From IMG/VR virus record IMGVR_UViG_3300031753_000007, positions 1-60,168 of that record: a DNA stretch of 60,168 nucleotides. One strand, written 5' to 3'. Of this stretch, positions 4,960-53,032 are shown one piece after another. The notes below the pieces were generated by a model that was not told the DNA's origin, ran no database searches, and saw only the letters and a program-made list of their open reading frames with translations. Position numbers and translations under genes: made by a program. How positions within the stretch are numbered: the stretch's first letter is position 1; each line of letters starts with the position of its first letter. The DNA is from a virus.

Positions 4960-5370
4960 ATGGCCAAGATCACCACCGCCGCCCAGATCAAGCAGCGCCT
5001 TACGCTCGCCATGCCCGCCGAACTCTTCGACGTCTACTCCGAGCGTGCCGCCAAGTTCCACCGCTCCCCTGAGGACGAGATGCTCCAGCGCCTCACTACC
5101 TGCGCCAGTCACGTGAGCCAGCAGCCCATCTACATCGACGATGACAGCCGCCGTCTCCTCGAAGCGATCGCAGGCCGCCAGCTCCGCACCGCCAAGGACC
5201 TCATCGCATGGGCCAACAACCTCTCCACTCTAAGCGTGGCAGGCACAACCGTTCCGCTAAGTGAGCAGCTCCTGCGCCGCCTCGACGGTCGCCGCTTCGG
5301 CAAGCCCCTGCCCGAGTTCGTGCAGCAAGCCGTCATCGACCAGCTCGAACAGTTCACCGGGATGAGGTAA
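4960..5370 (+). CDS. Hypothetical protein, pre-portal
   Basis: 136 residues, first gene after the promoter at 4822. Two segments have a similar helical style: residues 1-50 (AAQIKQRLTLAMPAELFDVY) and 95-136 (LSEQLLRRLDGRRFGKPLPEF). These resemble paired ribbon-helix-helix-like or small helical units. No family assigned. It may act in packaging or regulation of the structural operon. Confidence 0.6.
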   Translation: MAKITTAAQIKQRLTLAMPAELFDVYSERAAKFHRSPEDEMLQRLTTCASHVSQQPIYIDDDSRRLLEAIAGRQLRTAKDLIAWANNLSTLSVAGTTVPLSEQLLRRLDGRRFGKPLPEFVQQAVIDQLEQFTGMR

Positions 5371-5375
5371 ATCAC

Positions 5376-5684
5376 ATGATCAAGCGTACCGTCGTAATGC
5401 CCGTCTTCGACATCCACCACAGCGAGCTGACCCAGCCCGAAGCTCCCAGCGACCAATTCTCCCGCATCCAGCGGGACATGGACGCCGAAGGCTGGATGGG
5501 CCGCGGCTCGATCATGGAGCTCCCCGAGGACGGCCAGCACGGTGGACCCTACGGCGCCGGTGGCAACGCCGACAACTCAGGCGACCCCATCGACTTCCTG
5601 CACGCCAAAGCCAAGGAGTCCTTCCGCATCGCCGGCCCCAAGGACGTCACCGGCAAAGGCAGCTCCCCGGGAGCGAAGCGCTAA
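5376..5684 (+). CDS. Hypothetical protein, pre-portal
   Basis: 102 residues, five bases after the preceding stop. Polar, acidic and rich in Gly and Pro towards the C-terminus (GGPYGAGGNADNSGDPIDF). No hydrophobic core pattern or known motif is evident. Likely a small virion-associated or assembly protein given its place. Confidence 0.6.
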   Translation: MIKRTVVMPVFDIHHSELTQPEAPSDQFSRIQRDMDAEGWMGRGSIMELPEDGQHGGPYGAGGNADNSGDPIDFLHAKAKESFRIAGPKDVTGKGSSPGAKR

Positions 5685-35109: not shown

Positions 35110-37809
35110 TTACGCCGTCTTTTCCTCCACCACATCCAGTGCCTCCACGTTCAGCATCTCAAGAGCGTCGTCGTGCCAGCAGGAGCCCGTCTTGTACTCC
35201 ACGCCGATCGAGAGGCCACCAAGCTCTGGCACTGGCGCCTCCATCTCCTGCTTAAGCAGCCTCGCTGTGTGCATCAGGTTCGCCTCTTCCACTTCGCATG
35301 TCAAGGAGTCGTGTGTGCTCGCGAGGAGGATGCCTTCCTCTGCCAGTGGACGCAAGCGCAGGAGGACCTCTTTGAGCATGGCCGCAGCCGTGTCGCGTGG
35401 CAGGAAGGCGATGGCTGACTTGGCGTCCTCCCCCAAGGCCCAGCGCTTGTACTTCGAGTCCCAGCGGTACACCTCCCAGAAGCTCATCTCATAGCCGAAT
35501 GGATTGCGCAGCTTGCACTCGCGGGAGGCACGGTCGAGCGTCGCTTTCTGCCAGTCGCGTATCTTGGGGAATAAGTCGAAGTAGAGCGCTTGGAGGCGCT
35601 TCGCCTCGGCCTCCGACATCTCGTACATATCCGCCATCAGGCGCGGGCCCATGCCGTAGTTAGTGCCATGCACAGTGTGCTTGGCGTCATCATAGACCTT
35701 GCGGTTGGCGTGCTTGATCTCCGCGAACGCCTCGGCTAGACTCTCGTCTCCCCATGCAAGATCGGCCGGCCGTCCAAGGATGTGACTAGCCATGAAGCTG
35801 TGAACCCCGAGGCGAGCGAGTCTCTGGTAATCCGAATCTCCAGCAAACCAACCAACGAGGACTGCTTCAATACCGCGCCAATCTGCTTCGAGGATGACTT
35901 TACCAGCTCCTGCAGCGACGCACTTACGGAATCCTTGAGCAACATACTCCTCCTGCTTGTCCTGGATCGTCGCCGAGATATTGGGGCGACGCCAAGAAAT
36001 TCTGAACATACGTCCCCAGAAGCCGGGCGTAGCGTGGATGCGGCCATCGCGTCCGGGCTGCCAGCCTTTCACATACGTCCCCAGCACCTTCGACAGCTGG
36101 CGGCACTCGCGCACGATCTGCAGCACGGCTGAGAACTCGACATCGCGGGGCTTGCGACTGGCACGTAGCTTCTTCTGCAGCTTCTTGAGCGTGTCATCGT
36201 CGACCGTGCCCTTCTTGGTCTTGCGATTGACGCCGATGCGCTGGCCGTAGTAGCGAATGAGGTCGGCTACCTGGCCTGCCTCGCCGGGGCTACCTGGGTT
36301 GAAGGGTTCGACGAGGCAGTAGCGCTTGGCGGCGTAGACCTCGTACTCGCTGATGAGCGCTTCGCCTGTGGCAGCGATCTCTTCTGGCGAGAGGTCCTTG
36401 CCGAGCACCTTGAACTCGCGCAGCACGAGCGCTGGCCAGCGCGGGTCATCCGCCTTAGGAGGCTTCTTGTAGCCGTCCTTCTGCTTGGGCCGCTTCAACT
36501 CAAGAGGCACGATGCGCTGGAGCTCGGCGTCGCGGGCGTCCCACTTCGCCTGTAGTTCGGCCTCGAACGCGCGCGCGGTCTCTTGCGAATATGGGAGGCC
36601 ATTCTGGCTCATGCGCGTCAGCACTTCGTAGGTGTCGACTACGTGACGCTCGAACAACGTCCACTGGCCCTTCGAGCGTAGGTCACGCTCGATGCCGTCG
36701 CCGTTGCGCTTGAGGGCGAGTGCATCGTAGGCGCTGTAAACCTCGGGTTGGCTGCTTGACAAGTGCTTCCAGGGCTCGCCGGGCCAGCCGTAGAATGGCG
36801 ACACGAACTCCAGCGACCTGCACTTGAGCTTGGTGGGCAGGTTGGGCTGGAGATGCTTCCACAGCTTCATCCAGTCGTAGACGCGGCCGTTGACGGGGGC
36901 ACCTGCGGCAGTGAGGCGTGGACAGTCGAAGTCTTCATTCCACACGCCCTTGCGGCCATGGGAGGCGAGCATGCGCGTGGCGATCTCCTTGTAAGGGGAG
37001 GCCCACGGGAACGAGACCGCTAAGCCGTCGTAGCACAAGCTGGCACGGATGATGGTGTAGGAGATGTCGCGCTGTGGTGCAGCCTCGTCGTCTTCCTCCG
37101 CCAAGTCCTCCTCCTCGATCTCACCGCTCTCTGGCGTCTCGATGTCGAAGTCGAGGCGGTGCGCGTCGGGTACGTACCCCCGCTCGAAGGTGAGCATGTC
37201 GTCGAGGCTGGGATGAGGAAGGATGGGCAGCGCCTCGCGCACGAAGCCGTGCTTGGCGATGTCGATGGCACGCTGGATGGCCCACATGAATACGCCCGAC
37301 AGCCCCTGGAGGCCTTGCATGATCGCACTGGGATGGAAGGTGCCGATGACCCAGGTGCCGTCGTAGGGCCCGTCGAGAATGTACCCTTGCACGTGGGAGA
37401 TGGTCGTCTTGCCAGCGCCATAGGCAGTGAGCGCGCGTAGGGCTACATTGCCCAGCGCCACGAACACGCGTGGCCGCGCCTCCTCGAACATACGCTGGCG
37501 GTGGACGGCACAGTGGGCGACTGCACCAGCCTCCCACGGTGCCCCTTCAAGCCAGTTGCGCGGCGGCCGGCAGTTCACCGTGTTGTGGATGATGAAGTTC
37601 GAGCGCTCCAGGCCTGCGCGTTGCAGGAGGCGATTGAGCACGCTGCCGGCTGGTGCGTTGGGCCGGAAGGGCGCACTCTCGCGTGCCTCATGCTCTCCCA
37701 GTGCCTCGCCGATCAGCGCCACCTTGTAGTTGCCATTACCTTCCGGTGGCGAGAAGCTCTCGCCTTGGGTGGCGAGCACACATCCCGAGCACTCAGCGGG
37801 CTTGAGCAT
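35110..37809 (-). CDS. DNA polymerase A fused to UDG-like domain
   Basis: 899 residues. Residues 1-190 resemble family 4 uracil-DNA glycosylase: C7-x2-C10, C80 and C100 in the spacing of the 4Fe-4S ligands, the GEALGEHE loop (34-41), NCRPPRNW, and GTFHPSAIM near 157-165. From about 215 a 3'-5' exonuclease follows (RLDFDIETPESG, later YSAYDALALKR). The polymerase domain has motif A (LEADWRGIEAVLVGWFAGD), motif B (DDAKHTVHGTNYGMG) and motif C (STHDSLTCEVE). It copies the phage genome; the N-terminal part may bind or remove uracil ahead of synthesis. ATGA-type coupling joins it to the gene upstream. Confidence 0.9.
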   Translation of the reverse strand: MLKPAECSGCVLATQGESFSPPEGNGNYKVALIGEALGEHEARESAPFRPNAPAGSVLNRLLQRAGLERSNFIIHNTVNCRPPRNWLEGAPWEAGAVAHCAVHRQRMFEEARPRVFVALGNVALRALTAYGAGKTTISHVQGYILDGPYDGTWVIGTFHPSAIMQGLQGLSGVFMWAIQRAIDIAKHGFVREALPILPHPSLDDMLTFERGYVPDAHRLDFDIETPESGEIEEEDLAEEDDEAAPQRDISYTIIRASLCYDGLAVSFPWASPYKEIATRMLASHGRKGVWNEDFDCPRLTAAGAPVNGRVYDWMKLWKHLQPNLPTKLKCRSLEFVSPFYGWPGEPWKHLSSSQPEVYSAYDALALKRNGDGIERDLRSKGQWTLFERHVVDTYEVLTRMSQNGLPYSQETARAFEAELQAKWDARDAELQRIVPLELKRPKQKDGYKKPPKADDPRWPALVLREFKVLGKDLSPEEIAATGEALISEYEVYAAKRYCLVEPFNPGSPGEAGQVADLIRYYGQRIGVNRKTKKGTVDDDTLKKLQKKLRASRKPRDVEFSAVLQIVRECRQLSKVLGTYVKGWQPGRDGRIHATPGFWGRMFRISWRRPNISATIQDKQEEYVAQGFRKCVAAGAGKVILEADWRGIEAVLVGWFAGDSDYQRLARLGVHSFMASHILGRPADLAWGDESLAEAFAEIKHANRKVYDDAKHTVHGTNYGMGPRLMADMYEMSEAEAKRLQALYFDLFPKIRDWQKATLDRASRECKLRNPFGYEMSFWEVYRWDSKYKRWALGEDAKSAIAFLPRDTAAAMLKEVLLRLRPLAEEGILLASTHDSLTCEVEEANLMHTARLLKQEMEAPVPELGGLSIGVEYKTGSCWHDDALEMLNVEALDVVEEKTA

Positions 37810-50061: not shown

Positions 50062-51324
50062 TTACTCACCACCTTCTATCGCATGGTGATCTTTCCTGGG
50101 CAAATAGAGCCCACTGCCCTGCATGTCCTCCGCCACATTATGCGTCCAACACGCATCCCACATGGCACACTTACTCGGATAGTGGCACGAGCGCTCGTTC
50201 TGCGCGTAGTGCTCGTCTAAGCCAAAGCCTTGATCGGCGGCGATAGTCGCATTCGCCAGCTCGACTTGGCGCGTGATCGCCACGATCTGCTTCACCTTGG
50301 CCTCGATCCTTTCAGCCGAACGCATGATCGGTGGCACCGTGATGAACTGGTCCTCCACGACCTCCTCCGGCAGCCAGTTCACCCAGTAATCGACCGCACT
50401 TGAGGCGCCTAGTGGGCTCATAGGGAAATGTTCACGCCACACTGCGAAGCGTCCCCATCCCTTACGCTTGGTGTACTCCCACGCGTACTCAAGCTGCCTG
50501 AGCGGTGGATCCGCCTCACACTTGTAGCCCCAGATGAGCGGGGAGGAGTCGCGGTAGCCTATGACGGTGCCCACGCTGTCCTTCACTGGCATCCTGCGGC
50601 CCTTCACGAGGCCCTCGATGATGACGCCCCCGAACTCATGCCCATGCCGGCGCTCAGCCGCGAGCAGCTCCGTCATCAGCTGCATGTCCACTTCCCAGGT
50701 ACGCATCCAGCGCTCGTCGGCGGTGCCCACGGTCTTGAAGTTCACTACGAAGAGGCGGTGGTCGTACTTGCGCCTCACCACAGCATCTGCGCGTACCGCC
50801 AGCGTGACGTCATCAGAGAGAAGCACACGATCTTCAGCTTCAATTTCCACCACTTCGTATTCCGCTTGCCATTTCGGCCAGCGTACTCTAGCCCACGCAA
50901 GTACCAGAGCCTCCACAAGAGCCGATTGCTCCTCAATAACTGCTTGCTCATCGCCTGCCTCCTCGATCGCCAGACCACGCTCCTCGACCTCCGCCAGATA
51001 ACTTGACCTTGATTTCTGTGCGGCCTCGGATGCATTGCCTGTTGCCAGCAAGTACTCGAGGCCTTTGTGCACGTAGATCCCTGTGGCCAGTGGCAACGCA
51101 TGCTTCCTGCGCTCCCACCCACGCGTAGCAGCCACAAAGCGTATCTCCGCCTTGCACGCCTCACAGTGCGTGCCTTGAGGTGCCTCGTTCCACTGCTTGC
51201 CACAGCTAGTGCACACCCAATGGTCGACGCTGGCGTTCGGTGCCTCGTACTGAAACCATCGCAACCTTGGACACCTTTGCCAAGCAGCTATAGCGCTACG
51301 GCTGGTTACGATTCCGCCGCTCAC
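50062..51324 (-). CDS. PD-(D/E)XK (Cas4/RecB-like) nuclease, 5' end recoded
   Basis: 420 residues from GTG 51324, with TTGGAGG six bases upstream inside the HNH gene. N-terminus has an 'S-R-S-A-I-x-A-W-Q-R-C' block; residues 38-57 carry a zinc ribbon (CTSC ... CEAC). Core residues: H86, D180 and VVNFKT with K197; the middle acidic residue of the (D/E)-x-K motif is Asn195. C-terminal Cys cluster (CHYPSKCAMWDACW) resembles the Fe-S or zinc clasp of Cas4/AddB enzymes. Likely acts in recombination or end processing with the RecA-like ATPase. Its first 20 codons repeat, in different codons, the remnant at 51894-51953, and an HNH gene separates the two. Confidence 0.75.
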   Translation of the reverse strand: MSGGIVTSRSAIAAWQRCPRLRWFQYEAPNASVDHWVCTSCGKQWNEAPQGTHCEACKAEIRFVAATRGWERRKHALPLATGIYVHKGLEYLLATGNASEAAQKSRSSYLAEVEERGLAIEEAGDEQAVIEEQSALVEALVLAWARVRWPKWQAEYEVVEIEAEDRVLLSDDVTLAVRADAVVRRKYDHRLFVVNFKTVGTADERWMRTWEVDMQLMTELLAAERRHGHEFGGVIIEGLVKGRRMPVKDSVGTVIGYRDSSPLIWGYKCEADPPLRQLEYAWEYTKRKGWGRFAVWREHFPMSPLGASSAVDYWVNWLPEEVVEDQFITVPPIMRSAERIEAKVKQIVAITRQVELANATIAADQGFGLDEHYAQNERSCHYPSKCAMWDACWTHNVAEDMQGSGLYLPRKDHHAIEGGE

Positions 51325-51853
51325 GATCTGCCTCCAAGTGGTGCTTGCGGCAGAGCCATCTTATTTCCAGCGGCTTGCTGTAATCGTCGTGGTGACGAAC
51401 ACCCATCGCATCGCACTGAGCGACCTCGCATACTTGAGCGACGGGATAAGCATGAAGGGCCATCATTCTGGCAAGATGTCGGTCTTTGTGGCGTTCTCGA
51501 TAGGCCTTGTAATACATCAAGACACGCTCTCGGTTGCGGAGGCGCCATGCCTTTATACGAGCCCGCTTCTTGACGGGGTCCTGTAGGTCGGCATCCGTCC
51601 GAAACCTTTCTAAGTAGGCCAGCCACTTTTGTGGGTTGTTGCGACGGAAGCGCTCGCGGCGCTTGCGTGAATCGCATTTGTGGCAGTAAGCCCGAGCTAT
51701 GATCCGCGTGCGATTGCGGTAGGGTATGCGCACTAGGCCAAAGCAATCGAGGACAGCTAGAAGGCGTTGACATGAAGGGCAGACTTTGGTGACCTTTGAC
51801 CATGCCTTCAGCTCGGATGTCGTGAACTTTGCTTTCCATGTATCTCTTTGCAT
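51296..51853 (-). CDS. HNH homing-type endonuclease inserted at nuclease gene start
   Basis: 185 residues. CPSC and CHKC knuckles early, a basic helical middle (RRERFRRNNPQKWLAYLERF; KARIKAWRLRNRERVLMYYK) for DNA binding, then the catalytic end: VRHHDDYSKPLEIRWLCRKH, the well-known H-H-x-D-Y-S-K-P-L-E-x-x-W-L-C-x-x-H-H signature. Its last nine codons overlap the GTG of the nuclease gene. This arrangement, with a displaced 5' remnant on its other side, points to a free-standing homing endonuclease that entered this gene. Confidence 0.85.
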   Translation of the reverse strand: MQRDTWKAKFTTSELKAWSKVTKVCPSCQRLLAVLDCFGLVRIPYRNRTRIIARAYCHKCDSRKRRERFRRNNPQKWLAYLERFRTDADLQDPVKKRARIKAWRLRNRERVLMYYKAYRERHKDRHLARMMALHAYPVAQVCEVAQCDAMGVRHHDDYSKPLEIRWLCRKHHLEADRERRNRNQP

Positions 51854-51893
51854 CTAGCCAATATAGCGCAATATCACCACTATTTTCAAGCCA

Positions 51894-51953
51894 CCAGCAC
51901 AGTCGATTGCAACGCTGCCAAGCGGAGATGGCGCTCCTCGACGTGGTGATCAT
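51894..51953 (-). pseudogene. Stranded original 5' end of the PD-(D/E)XK nuclease gene
   Basis: From ATG 51953, in the same ATGA overlap with the gene before it as the operon's other genes. Its 20 codons encode I-T-T-S-R-S-A-I-S-A-W-Q-R-C-N-R-L-C-W after Met, matching the N-terminus of the functional nuclease at 15 of 19 positions. Ten of the 15 shared residues use different codons. Beyond this the frame runs without function through the HNH gene to 51321. Confidence 0.7.
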
Positions 51954-52114
51954 TTCCTGAACACCTGCTCGTCGACCGCCTTCACATGCTCCACCAGCTC
52001 CGCGAGCTGTGCCGCGATCTCCCGCAGCAGCACCATGGTCACGTAACTGATATCTAGCTGGGTTGCACTGGCAACGTCTACGATACCTATGACGCGTATC
52101 TCGTCGGCAGTCAC
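51950..52114 (-). CDS. Small hypothetical protein
   Basis: 54 residues from GTG 52114 (GTGA overlap). Alpha-helical (SYVTMVLLREIAAQLAELVE), acidic and probably oligomeric. It ends in an ATGA overlap with the stranded nuclease start, showing where the intact nuclease gene once began. Unassigned. Confidence 0.6.
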   Translation of the reverse strand: MTADEIRVIGIVDVASATQLDISYVTMVLLREIAAQLAELVEHVKAVDEQVFRK

Positions 52115-52296
52115 TGCGTCTCCTTCGCCTGTCGCAGCGCCTGCACATACTCGATCAGCGCCGCCCAGACTTCCGCTTCGAGGTAGATGGTGTTGGTGAC
52201 GCGGACGCCATCCTCGGTCGTGAGCACGAGCCCGCGGTCGTCGCGGTCTACGTACACGCCATCGCCTATGTAAGCCTTCGTCCCTGTCCGGCTCAC
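52111..52296 (-). CDS. Conserved small phage protein
   Basis: 61 residues from GTG. TKAYIGDGVYVDRDDRGLVL and IYLEAEVWAALIEYVQAL match a family of short proteins seen in many phages ('gDGvYvd.d...l.LtteDG..vtntI.Le.ev...L..Yv..l'). Compact beta structure with a C-terminal helix. Activity unknown. Confidence 0.7.
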   Translation of the reverse strand: MSRTGTKAYIGDGVYVDRDDRGLVLTTEDGVRVTNTIYLEAEVWAALIEYVQALRQAKETQ

Positions 52297-52478
52297 TTAG
52301 CCTCCTGCGTTTTCGCTGCTTCATTCAGGCAATTCGCACATTCGACATCGTCAAGTACAGCGGTAGCACTCACGCTGATGCCGAACGCACGACCGAGCTG
52401 CTCCAGCTTCATTGCATGCAGTAGGCAGCTCGGTACGTCTTTGCCCGGCCAATGTACGATCAACACAGCTGCGGTCAC
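52293..52478 (-). CDS. Small hypothetical protein
   Basis: 61 residues from GTG 52478 with AGGAGGCTAA directly ahead, the same 3' sequence that ends the previous gene. It ends in QEAK because the last codons are also the ribosome site of the next gene. Contains one CANC pair. Unassigned. Confidence 0.55.
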   Translation of the reverse strand: MTAAVLIVHWPGKDVPSCLLHAMKLEQLGRAFGISVSATAVLDDVECANCLNEAAKTQEAK

Positions 52479-52639
52479 TTAGCCTCCTGTTTGCGCGCCC
52501 GCACCAGCCCATCGGTCACCAGCTTGCGTATGACGCCTGAGACGCTCACCGGCACTCCGTAGCGCTCGGTCAGGCGCTCCGCCTCCCGCTCGATCAGGCG
52601 CTTGAGTCCCTGCGGGATGCGCATCTGGAACTGAATCAT
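52475..52639 (-). CDS. Ribbon-helix-helix (Arc/CopG-like) protein
   Basis: 54 residues from ATG 52639: IQFQMRIPQGLKRLIEREAE begins a beta strand and helix of the RHH fold; GVPVSVSGVIRKLVTDGLVR is the second helix. An in-frame start at 52732 would add 31 poorly conserved residues, but would be almost leaderless from the promoter at 52740. First gene of the minus-strand operon, so it is a candidate autoregulator. Confidence 0.7.
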   Translation of the reverse strand: MIQFQMRIPQGLKRLIEREAERLTERYGVPVSVSGVIRKLVTDGLVRARKQEAK

Positions 52640-52739
52640 GGCCTCGTCCTCGCGGGCGGTGTAGAGTGCGGCGCTCTCTGCGGAGGCGTCGCCTGCGTTG
52701 TCATCTCTTGTCGTGTGGGTGTCTCGTGTCACGCCAGCG

Positions 52740-52769
52740 ACTCTACGCGTCTGTGCCCTACGTTGTCAA
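52740..52769 (-). promoter_or_regulatory. Minus-strand promoter for the long operon
   Basis: On the minus strand TTGACA (52769-52764), 18 bases, then TAGAGT (52745-52740). Transcription would begin near 52733, 94 bases ahead of the RHH start. It is the best sigma-70 match in front of the 18-kb operon. Confidence 0.6.
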
Positions 52770-53032
52770 GCGGCTAGATATGGTGTGCCACCTTAGCATG
52801 CACGCAATAGGTGGTGTAAGTGGCGGAGAGGTGTGCACTTTTGCACAGGCGTGTAAATACTGTGGATAAGGTAGCAAACCTCTTGCCATAACTGTAGAGC
52901 TGGGTGTAGGGTGTCGGGCACGAGCGATCGAAAGCAGTTCAGGCTGCGATTCGCGTAGCTTGCACAAGAGGACCGGGTTGGCGGCCTTATCCCGCTAGCC
53001 CGGACTCTGCCCTTGATAAGGAAGGGAGCCCC
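52770..53032. other. Intergenic control region, possible replication origin
   Basis: The divergent, gene-free region (392 bases from 52640 to 53032) between the minus operon and the AAA+ gene. It contains a perfect DnaA box in reverse (TGTGGATAA, 52861-52869), an inverted GTGCA-CTTT-TGCAC near 52834-52847, and a run of short GGATAAGG/GATAAGG-like repeats toward 53020. Origin activity is not proven; a second DnaA box occurs by chance in coding at 31728. Confidence 0.4.

Follow-up and report, generated by a model that had tools for sequence, protein, structure and literature searches.

An HNH gene between two diverged copies of a nuclease 5' end in an orphan phage: a probable case of homing gene entry

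The nuclease operon and its duplicated 5' end

The window, by which we mean the whole stretch of DNA analysed, is the 60,168-base virus record IMGVR_UViG_3300031753_000007, and its capsid and polymerase relatives mark it as an orphan phage: the nearest relatives of the major capsid protein, which are those of Tunturiibacter phages, share 28% identity with it, and the polymerase has distant relatives only. At 35110-37809 the window carries an 899-aa ORF in which a uracil-DNA glycosylase domain and a family A DNA polymerase are fused (Pfam UDG, 2.5e-17; DNA_pol_A, 5.1e-26). The nuclease/HNH region treated here is a minus-strand operon, with all of its features on that strand:

52732-52475, 52478-52293, 52296-52111 and 52114-51950 (together 51950 to 52732), minus strand: four upstream genes, with a 4-base GTGA or ATGA overlap at each join
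51854 to 51953, minus strand: upstream, non-working nuclease 5' end; it has 33 codons ahead of the HNH ATG, and codons 2-20 among them match the nuclease N-terminus
51321 to 51953, minus strand: frame of the upstream start (the displaced frame), stop-free over 210 codons, which take in the whole HNH gene, and ending at the TGA of a GTGA overlap
51296 to 51853, minus strand: HNH endonuclease gene, 185 aa, its last 9 codons overlapping the nuclease start
51331 to 51335, minus strand: GGAGG, the nuclease ribosome-binding site, inside HNH codons
50062 to 51324, minus strand: working nuclease ORF with a GTG start, 420 aa, of the RecB/Cas4-like PD-(D/E)XK family

Besides the nuclease, the operon holds an SSB-like gene and a gene with weak best matches to Sak4/ATPase proteins. 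The junctions that join the four upstream genes and the displaced frame are, in order, GTGA, GTGA, GTGA and ATGA, and with the final GTGA, shared by the displaced frame and the nuclease, they make five NTGA junctions in a row along the operon.

The nuclease matches the phrog_1218 exonuclease (E = 1.1e-7) and aligns with its homologues from other phages at 22-26% identity. Its catalytic residues D180 and K197 are kept and N195 replaces the usual D at the third position, where the window nuclease reads NFK and the phage homologues read DFK or DHK; the replaced residue is one of the usual metal-binding acidic residues. With N195 at this position, "working" denotes here an intact ORF of putative activity. 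Just after the duplicated N-terminal motif lies a zinc-ribbon-like insert, CTSCGKQW...HCEACK (window 51142-51219, approximately residues 36-60), which is absent from the aligned nuclease homologues. No second nuclease was found elsewhere in the 60,168-base record.

The HNH ORF, which sits between the two nuclease 5' copies, matches the phrog_2340 endonuclease (E = 4.9e-14), and its protein gave neither a Pfam match nor a credible solved-structure match. An in-frame TAG immediately precedes its ATG, and since the start lacks a Shine-Dalgarno sequence, expression of the protein is probably low. At the other end, the GTG start of the nuclease, its GGAGG and its first four codons are all HNH coding sequence, so that the HNH 3' end doubles as the translation start of the nuclease, and the last HNH residues are encoded by nuclease sequence read in another frame. 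A search of 50800-52800 returned no Rfam match at E <= 1 and so gave no sign of a group I intron or of another structured RNA around the HNH gene. HNH genes of the phrog_2340 type also lie directly after the SSB gene of exonuclease-annealing-SSB modules (L149, L151-L155, L157, L159, L161 and L162), a position that is a recurrent niche of this type in many unrelated phages.

The upstream ATG at 51953 lies within the ATGA overlap with the stop codon of the preceding gene (51952-51950). The frame that it opens reads MITTSRSAISAWQRCNRLCW, and the N-terminus of the nuclease ORF reads VSGGIVTSRSAIAAWQRCPRLRW. Upstream residues 2-20 are identical to nuclease residues 5-23 at 15 of 19 positions, and the corresponding DNA segments (51950-51894 upstream and 51312-51256 downstream) at 32 of 57 nucleotides. 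The clear similarity, which thus spans only 19 residues, ends after upstream residue 20, although there are 33 codons ahead of the HNH start. In the working copy, homology begins at what was codon 2 of the old gene (ATC, its present codon 5), and GGA now stands where the old ATG was. As a within-window control, the N-terminal 40 residues of each of 40 window genes served as queries against the whole window; the nuclease N-terminus pair was the best off-target match among those listed (E = 3.2e-7), the others being mostly low-complexity and reaching 3.4e-4 at best. Its score of 81 also exceeds 99% of the cross-locus pairs drawn from 71 HNH loci. The SxS...C motif at the N-terminus is a feature of the nuclease family, but distant homologues are identical at only about 5 of the 19 residues when read off the alignment, which argues that the two copies are specifically related beyond the general family motif.

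An earlier note on this DNA had described the displaced 20-codon 5' end and its match to the nuclease N-terminus, and that description is confirmed. It had also placed both the new start and its GGAGG in the last nine HNH codons; the GTG is indeed in the ninth codon from the end, but the GGAGG occupies codons 11-13. The 15 identical residues use the same codon in 5 cases and differing codons in 10, and independent choice from the codon usage of the window would give 7.2 same codons (p = 0.15). On this comparison the two copies are at the level of synonymous saturation, which fits homologues from diverged phages and does not require selection for codon change.

An open frame across the HNH gene

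The displaced frame runs without a stop codon through the entire HNH gene and ends at the TGA of 51323-51321, which overlaps the start of the nuclease, itself in another frame. Synonymous codons of the HNH gene were permuted 50,000 times and the stops before this TGA were counted: the displaced frame has 0 stops against 6.95 +/- 1.98 expected, a result reached in 2 of the 50,000 permutations (p = 4e-5). The frame was picked after inspection, and correction over about 190 gene-frames brings p to about 0.008. The other frame of the HNH gene is not depleted (9 stops against 7.6 expected), nor are 33 other window genes taken together (370 observed against 375 expected), and the lowest stop-depletion p among 63 HNH relatives is 0.007. 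The codon usage of the displaced frame is no better than that of permuted sequence (p = 0.92), and a real overlapping gene was rejected on this ground; by this measure the displaced frame is an open path and not a coding gene. Because the genes of the operon are chained by NTGA overlaps up to the nuclease, the frame could be kept open, and its lack of stops together with the GTGA overlap suggests translational coupling to the nuclease. Termination-reinitiation at such gene overlaps is established (PMC6728339).

HNH-free relatives and a mirror-image locus

Relatives of the window phage that lack the HNH gene were found neither by tblastn in phages, nor by peptide scans of viral contigs using the nuclease, the downstream ATPase-like gene and the DNA polymerase, nor by a scan with the nuclease alignment, nor among genome contigs. 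Degenerate DNA patterns for SxSAIxAWQRC gave nine matches, all of which we read as chance, and among 50 HNH-bearing viral records the nuclease family gave one distant match, not beside a duplicated end. Since no HNH-free relative of this phage was found, the insertion and its direction are putative for the window.

About 92 distinct HNH loci, the window included, were then surveyed for duplicated flanks, and a terminal duplication was present in two of them, the window and a type that we name after contig L022. The latter occurs in three contigs (L020, L022 and L025), and its HNH gene belongs to the same PHROG family as that of the window. Its layout is the mirror image of the window, with a duplicated 3' end and with the original DNA lying 3' of the HNH gene:

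L022, 1965-5103 (contig IMGVR_UViG_3300025319_000110): HNH gene between a diverged working 3' end and a displaced native 3' end

An 89-residue gene ends in TEEQLYKLYGRNIDT and its stop codon and is followed by the HNH gene, whose 3' end runs into TEDQLYKLYGRNIDD and a stop codon that overlaps the ATG of the next gene. Three contigs without the HNH gene (L118, L119 and L120) each have one uninterrupted gene instead, the allele in L118 being ACCGAAGATCAGTTGTATAAACTTTATGG. The earlier note had proposed comparing HNH-free relatives with the displaced copy, and at this locus the comparison came out as it had expected: the displaced copy is identical to L118 at 42 of 42 nucleotides, within an exact run of 86 nt, and to L119 at 40 of 42, L120 having the same sequence as L119 there (again 40/42), whereas the working copy agrees at 33 of 42 with the displaced copy, 33 of 42 with L118 and 32 of 42 with L119. 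The HNH C-terminus in L022 (NRRSVV) is encoded by target-gene DNA, and the uninterrupted L118 gene can be read to give those six residues as well. Thus, in L022 as in the window, the HNH C-terminus comes from target-gene DNA, and the HNH 3' end is in both cases fused directly to the target sequence.

The portal gene and everything 3' of the L022 HNH gene are L118-like, at about 0.85-1.0 identity compared stretch by stretch, and the 89-residue gene has about 0.75 identity to L119 against 0.58-0.68 to L118. Hence the 89-residue gene and the HNH gene came from another lineage as one tract, with its right-hand joint at the target. The L022 working end is no more and no less diverged than the introgressed gene as a whole is from its nearest relative (about 0.75 identity). 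From the alignment of these relatives, phages do undergo HNH invasion with a diverged end left working and the original end displaced. This supports, as a process in phages, the invasion that the earlier note had read in the window, but not the recoding for immunity that it attached to it.

In Escherichia phage Mangalitsa (L158:1725-3168) the HNH 3' end overlaps the start and the ribosome-binding site of a 5'-3' exonuclease gene, the same overlap of HNH and next-gene start as in the window; this locus was rejected as a further case, being without a displaced copy. The other high survey scores (L045, L058, L062 and similar) were low-complexity frames. The HNH family had 11 carriers among 399 bacterial genomes, with no further duplicated-end case. 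Just after the 278-aa gene of L022, at 5132-5443, lies an ORF that resembles the N-terminal part of an HNH protein and lacks the HNH core; it is probably a decayed homing gene.

Interpretation and comparison with known systems

The explanation that we favour, with a probability of roughly 0.62 for the explanation as a whole, is that a free-standing homing HNH gene invaded a phage nuclease gene at the 5' end and left diverged duplicate starts, the HNH gene of the window being a putative homing endonuclease gene that does not lie in a self-splicing intron. The HNH enzyme would have made its cut at the start of the nuclease gene or close to it, and repair would have brought in, along with the HNH gene, part of a diverged homologous nuclease gene, joined homologously on one side and, on the other, illegitimately at the cut. 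This would leave two diverged 5' copies flanking the HNH gene, one complete and working and the other cut off. Their synonymous differences would reflect their origin in different lineages, and the working copy may thereby be without the cut site. The displaced start would still be fed by the overlapping operon, and the depletion of stops makes it most likely that the frame is stop-free so that ribosomes terminate and then restart on the nuclease. In the window itself either copy could be the incomer, and both assignments are compatible with its sequence; by the precedent of L022, the resident target would be the DNA on the 3' side of the HNH gene, here the complete working nuclease, and the incomer would be the upstream fragment. 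It is a more doubtful proposition that the whole works as a home-and-rescue element, in which the HNH gene would supply the start and the ribosome-binding site, the working copy would be free of the cut site, and the stop-free frame would hand the ribosomes on.

We consider it unlikely that the element is a mobile cassette with a purposely recoded 5' exon as its habitual cargo for rescue and immunity, the upstream copy being the original. Such a cassette would account for the geometry and for the different codons at 10 of 15 residues, and L022 has the same outcome at a 3' end, its working copy again being the diverged one. However, the codon differences do not exceed independent choice, the whole neighbouring gene of L022 is as diverged as its end and thus calls for no special recoding, the arrangement occurs at no more than 2 of about 92 HNH loci, and among the HNH relatives no homologous carried exon turns up repeatedly. 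Deliberate recoding, which the earlier note had proposed, is therefore dropped in favour of a diverged homologue, which is enough, and recoding for immunity goes beyond the evidence, the divergence in the window being at the level of neutral saturation.

That the locus is instead the relic of an HNH gene lying out of frame inside a read-through nuclease, to which later recombination brought a complete downstream gene, we regard as quite unlikely. The host frame open over a hidden HNH gene is the arrangement of mycobacteriophage ShiLan (PMC11855218), and in both ShiLan and the window the HNH gene has no Shine-Dalgarno sequence; but the open frame of the window stops at its TGA and does not enter the nuclease, the frame offset differs (the third frame in ShiLan, the second in the window), and no mycobacteriophage is among the tblastn matches of the window HNH. 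Very unlikely is a tandem duplication, in which the first of two nuclease paralogues was mostly deleted and the HNH gene landed in the gap. The codon saturation would suit old paralogues, but the upstream copy keeps 15 of 19 residues and a conserved start although it lies outside the working gene, and for this reason it would have to have been under selection until recently; moreover, the record has no second nuclease, and L022 shows insertion into a single-copy gene. A chance match of a short motif beside an ordinary HNH gene with a fortuitously open frame is hardly credible, since the match, though of only 19 residues and including a family motif, is by far the best in the window among those listed, the open frame has a p of 4e-5 (about 0.008 corrected), and other family members are identical at only about 5 of 19 residues.

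The usual view is that free-standing homing genes survive chiefly by settling between genes or by splitting those that can bear it. The entry that we favour would add a third way, earlier found, as far as we could find, only in fungal mitochondria: at two phage loci a homing gene would have arrived with a diverged end of its target, so that the gene stays whole and the cut site is displaced. This would explain how coding sequence can be invaded by an endonuclease gene that has no splicing element, it would be a natural counterpart of engineered home-and-rescue drives, and it would show exactly where phage lineages were joined by recombination. If the open displaced frame is confirmed, selection would have kept a passage for ribosomes through a selfish gene.

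Known phage systems share parts of this layout. The seg and mob genes of T4 and split genes of the Aeh1 nrdA type are, like the window HNH gene, promoterless, lie beside or inside their targets and overlap their neighbours, and T4 homing endonuclease genes likewise have elements for downstream gene expression embedded in them; the T4 cases in the available text split or adjoin a gene, and a duplicated diverged gene end was not seen there (PMC2988022). Boundaries of genetic exchange can be marked by homing endonuclease genes (PMC10448857), and the L022 HNH gene likewise lies exactly at the switch between two lineages, but the duplication of a terminal exon seen in L022 does not appear in the available part of that source. 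Within the available portions of three phage homing-gene papers (PMC10448857, PMC2988022, PMC12724721), a layout like that of the mORF hybrids described below is not reported. The hidden HNH insertions in the methylases of the mycobacteriophages ShiLan and Pacc40 share with the window an HNH gene that is out of frame and without a ribosome-binding site, and a host frame that is stop-free through the insertion (PMC11855218); the host protein of ShiLan reads through to its own end, whereas the frame in the window stops where the complete nuclease ORF restarts.

The closest counterparts are the mORF gene hybrids in the mitochondria of Allomyces and Glomus/Rhizophagus, which consist of an inserted, diverged and expressed gene end, an endonuclease gene and the displaced native end (PMC3630166). 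There the native end is 91-98% identical in nucleotides to relatives and the inserted end 64-81%, with the protein conserved (PMC3630166). The earlier note had called such an arrangement much less described, but these fungal hybrids have it at gene 3' ends; the 5' version, with the start and the ribosome-binding site inside the endonuclease gene, was not found in the open-access literature. The window and L022 share with the hybrids diverged ends on both sides of the endonuclease gene and one complete ORF, and L022 matches them closely, as its duplicated piece is a 3' end and its displaced copy is the DNA of uninterrupted relatives (42/42 and 40/42). The fungal cases concern 3' ends (C-termini) and LAGLIDADG or GIY-YIG enzymes in organelles, whereas here the enzyme is HNH and the hosts are phages, and the piece in the window is a 5' end, which needs a new start codon and a ribosome-binding site. 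The layout of the window and L022 is the phage version of these mitochondrial hybrids (PMC3630166).
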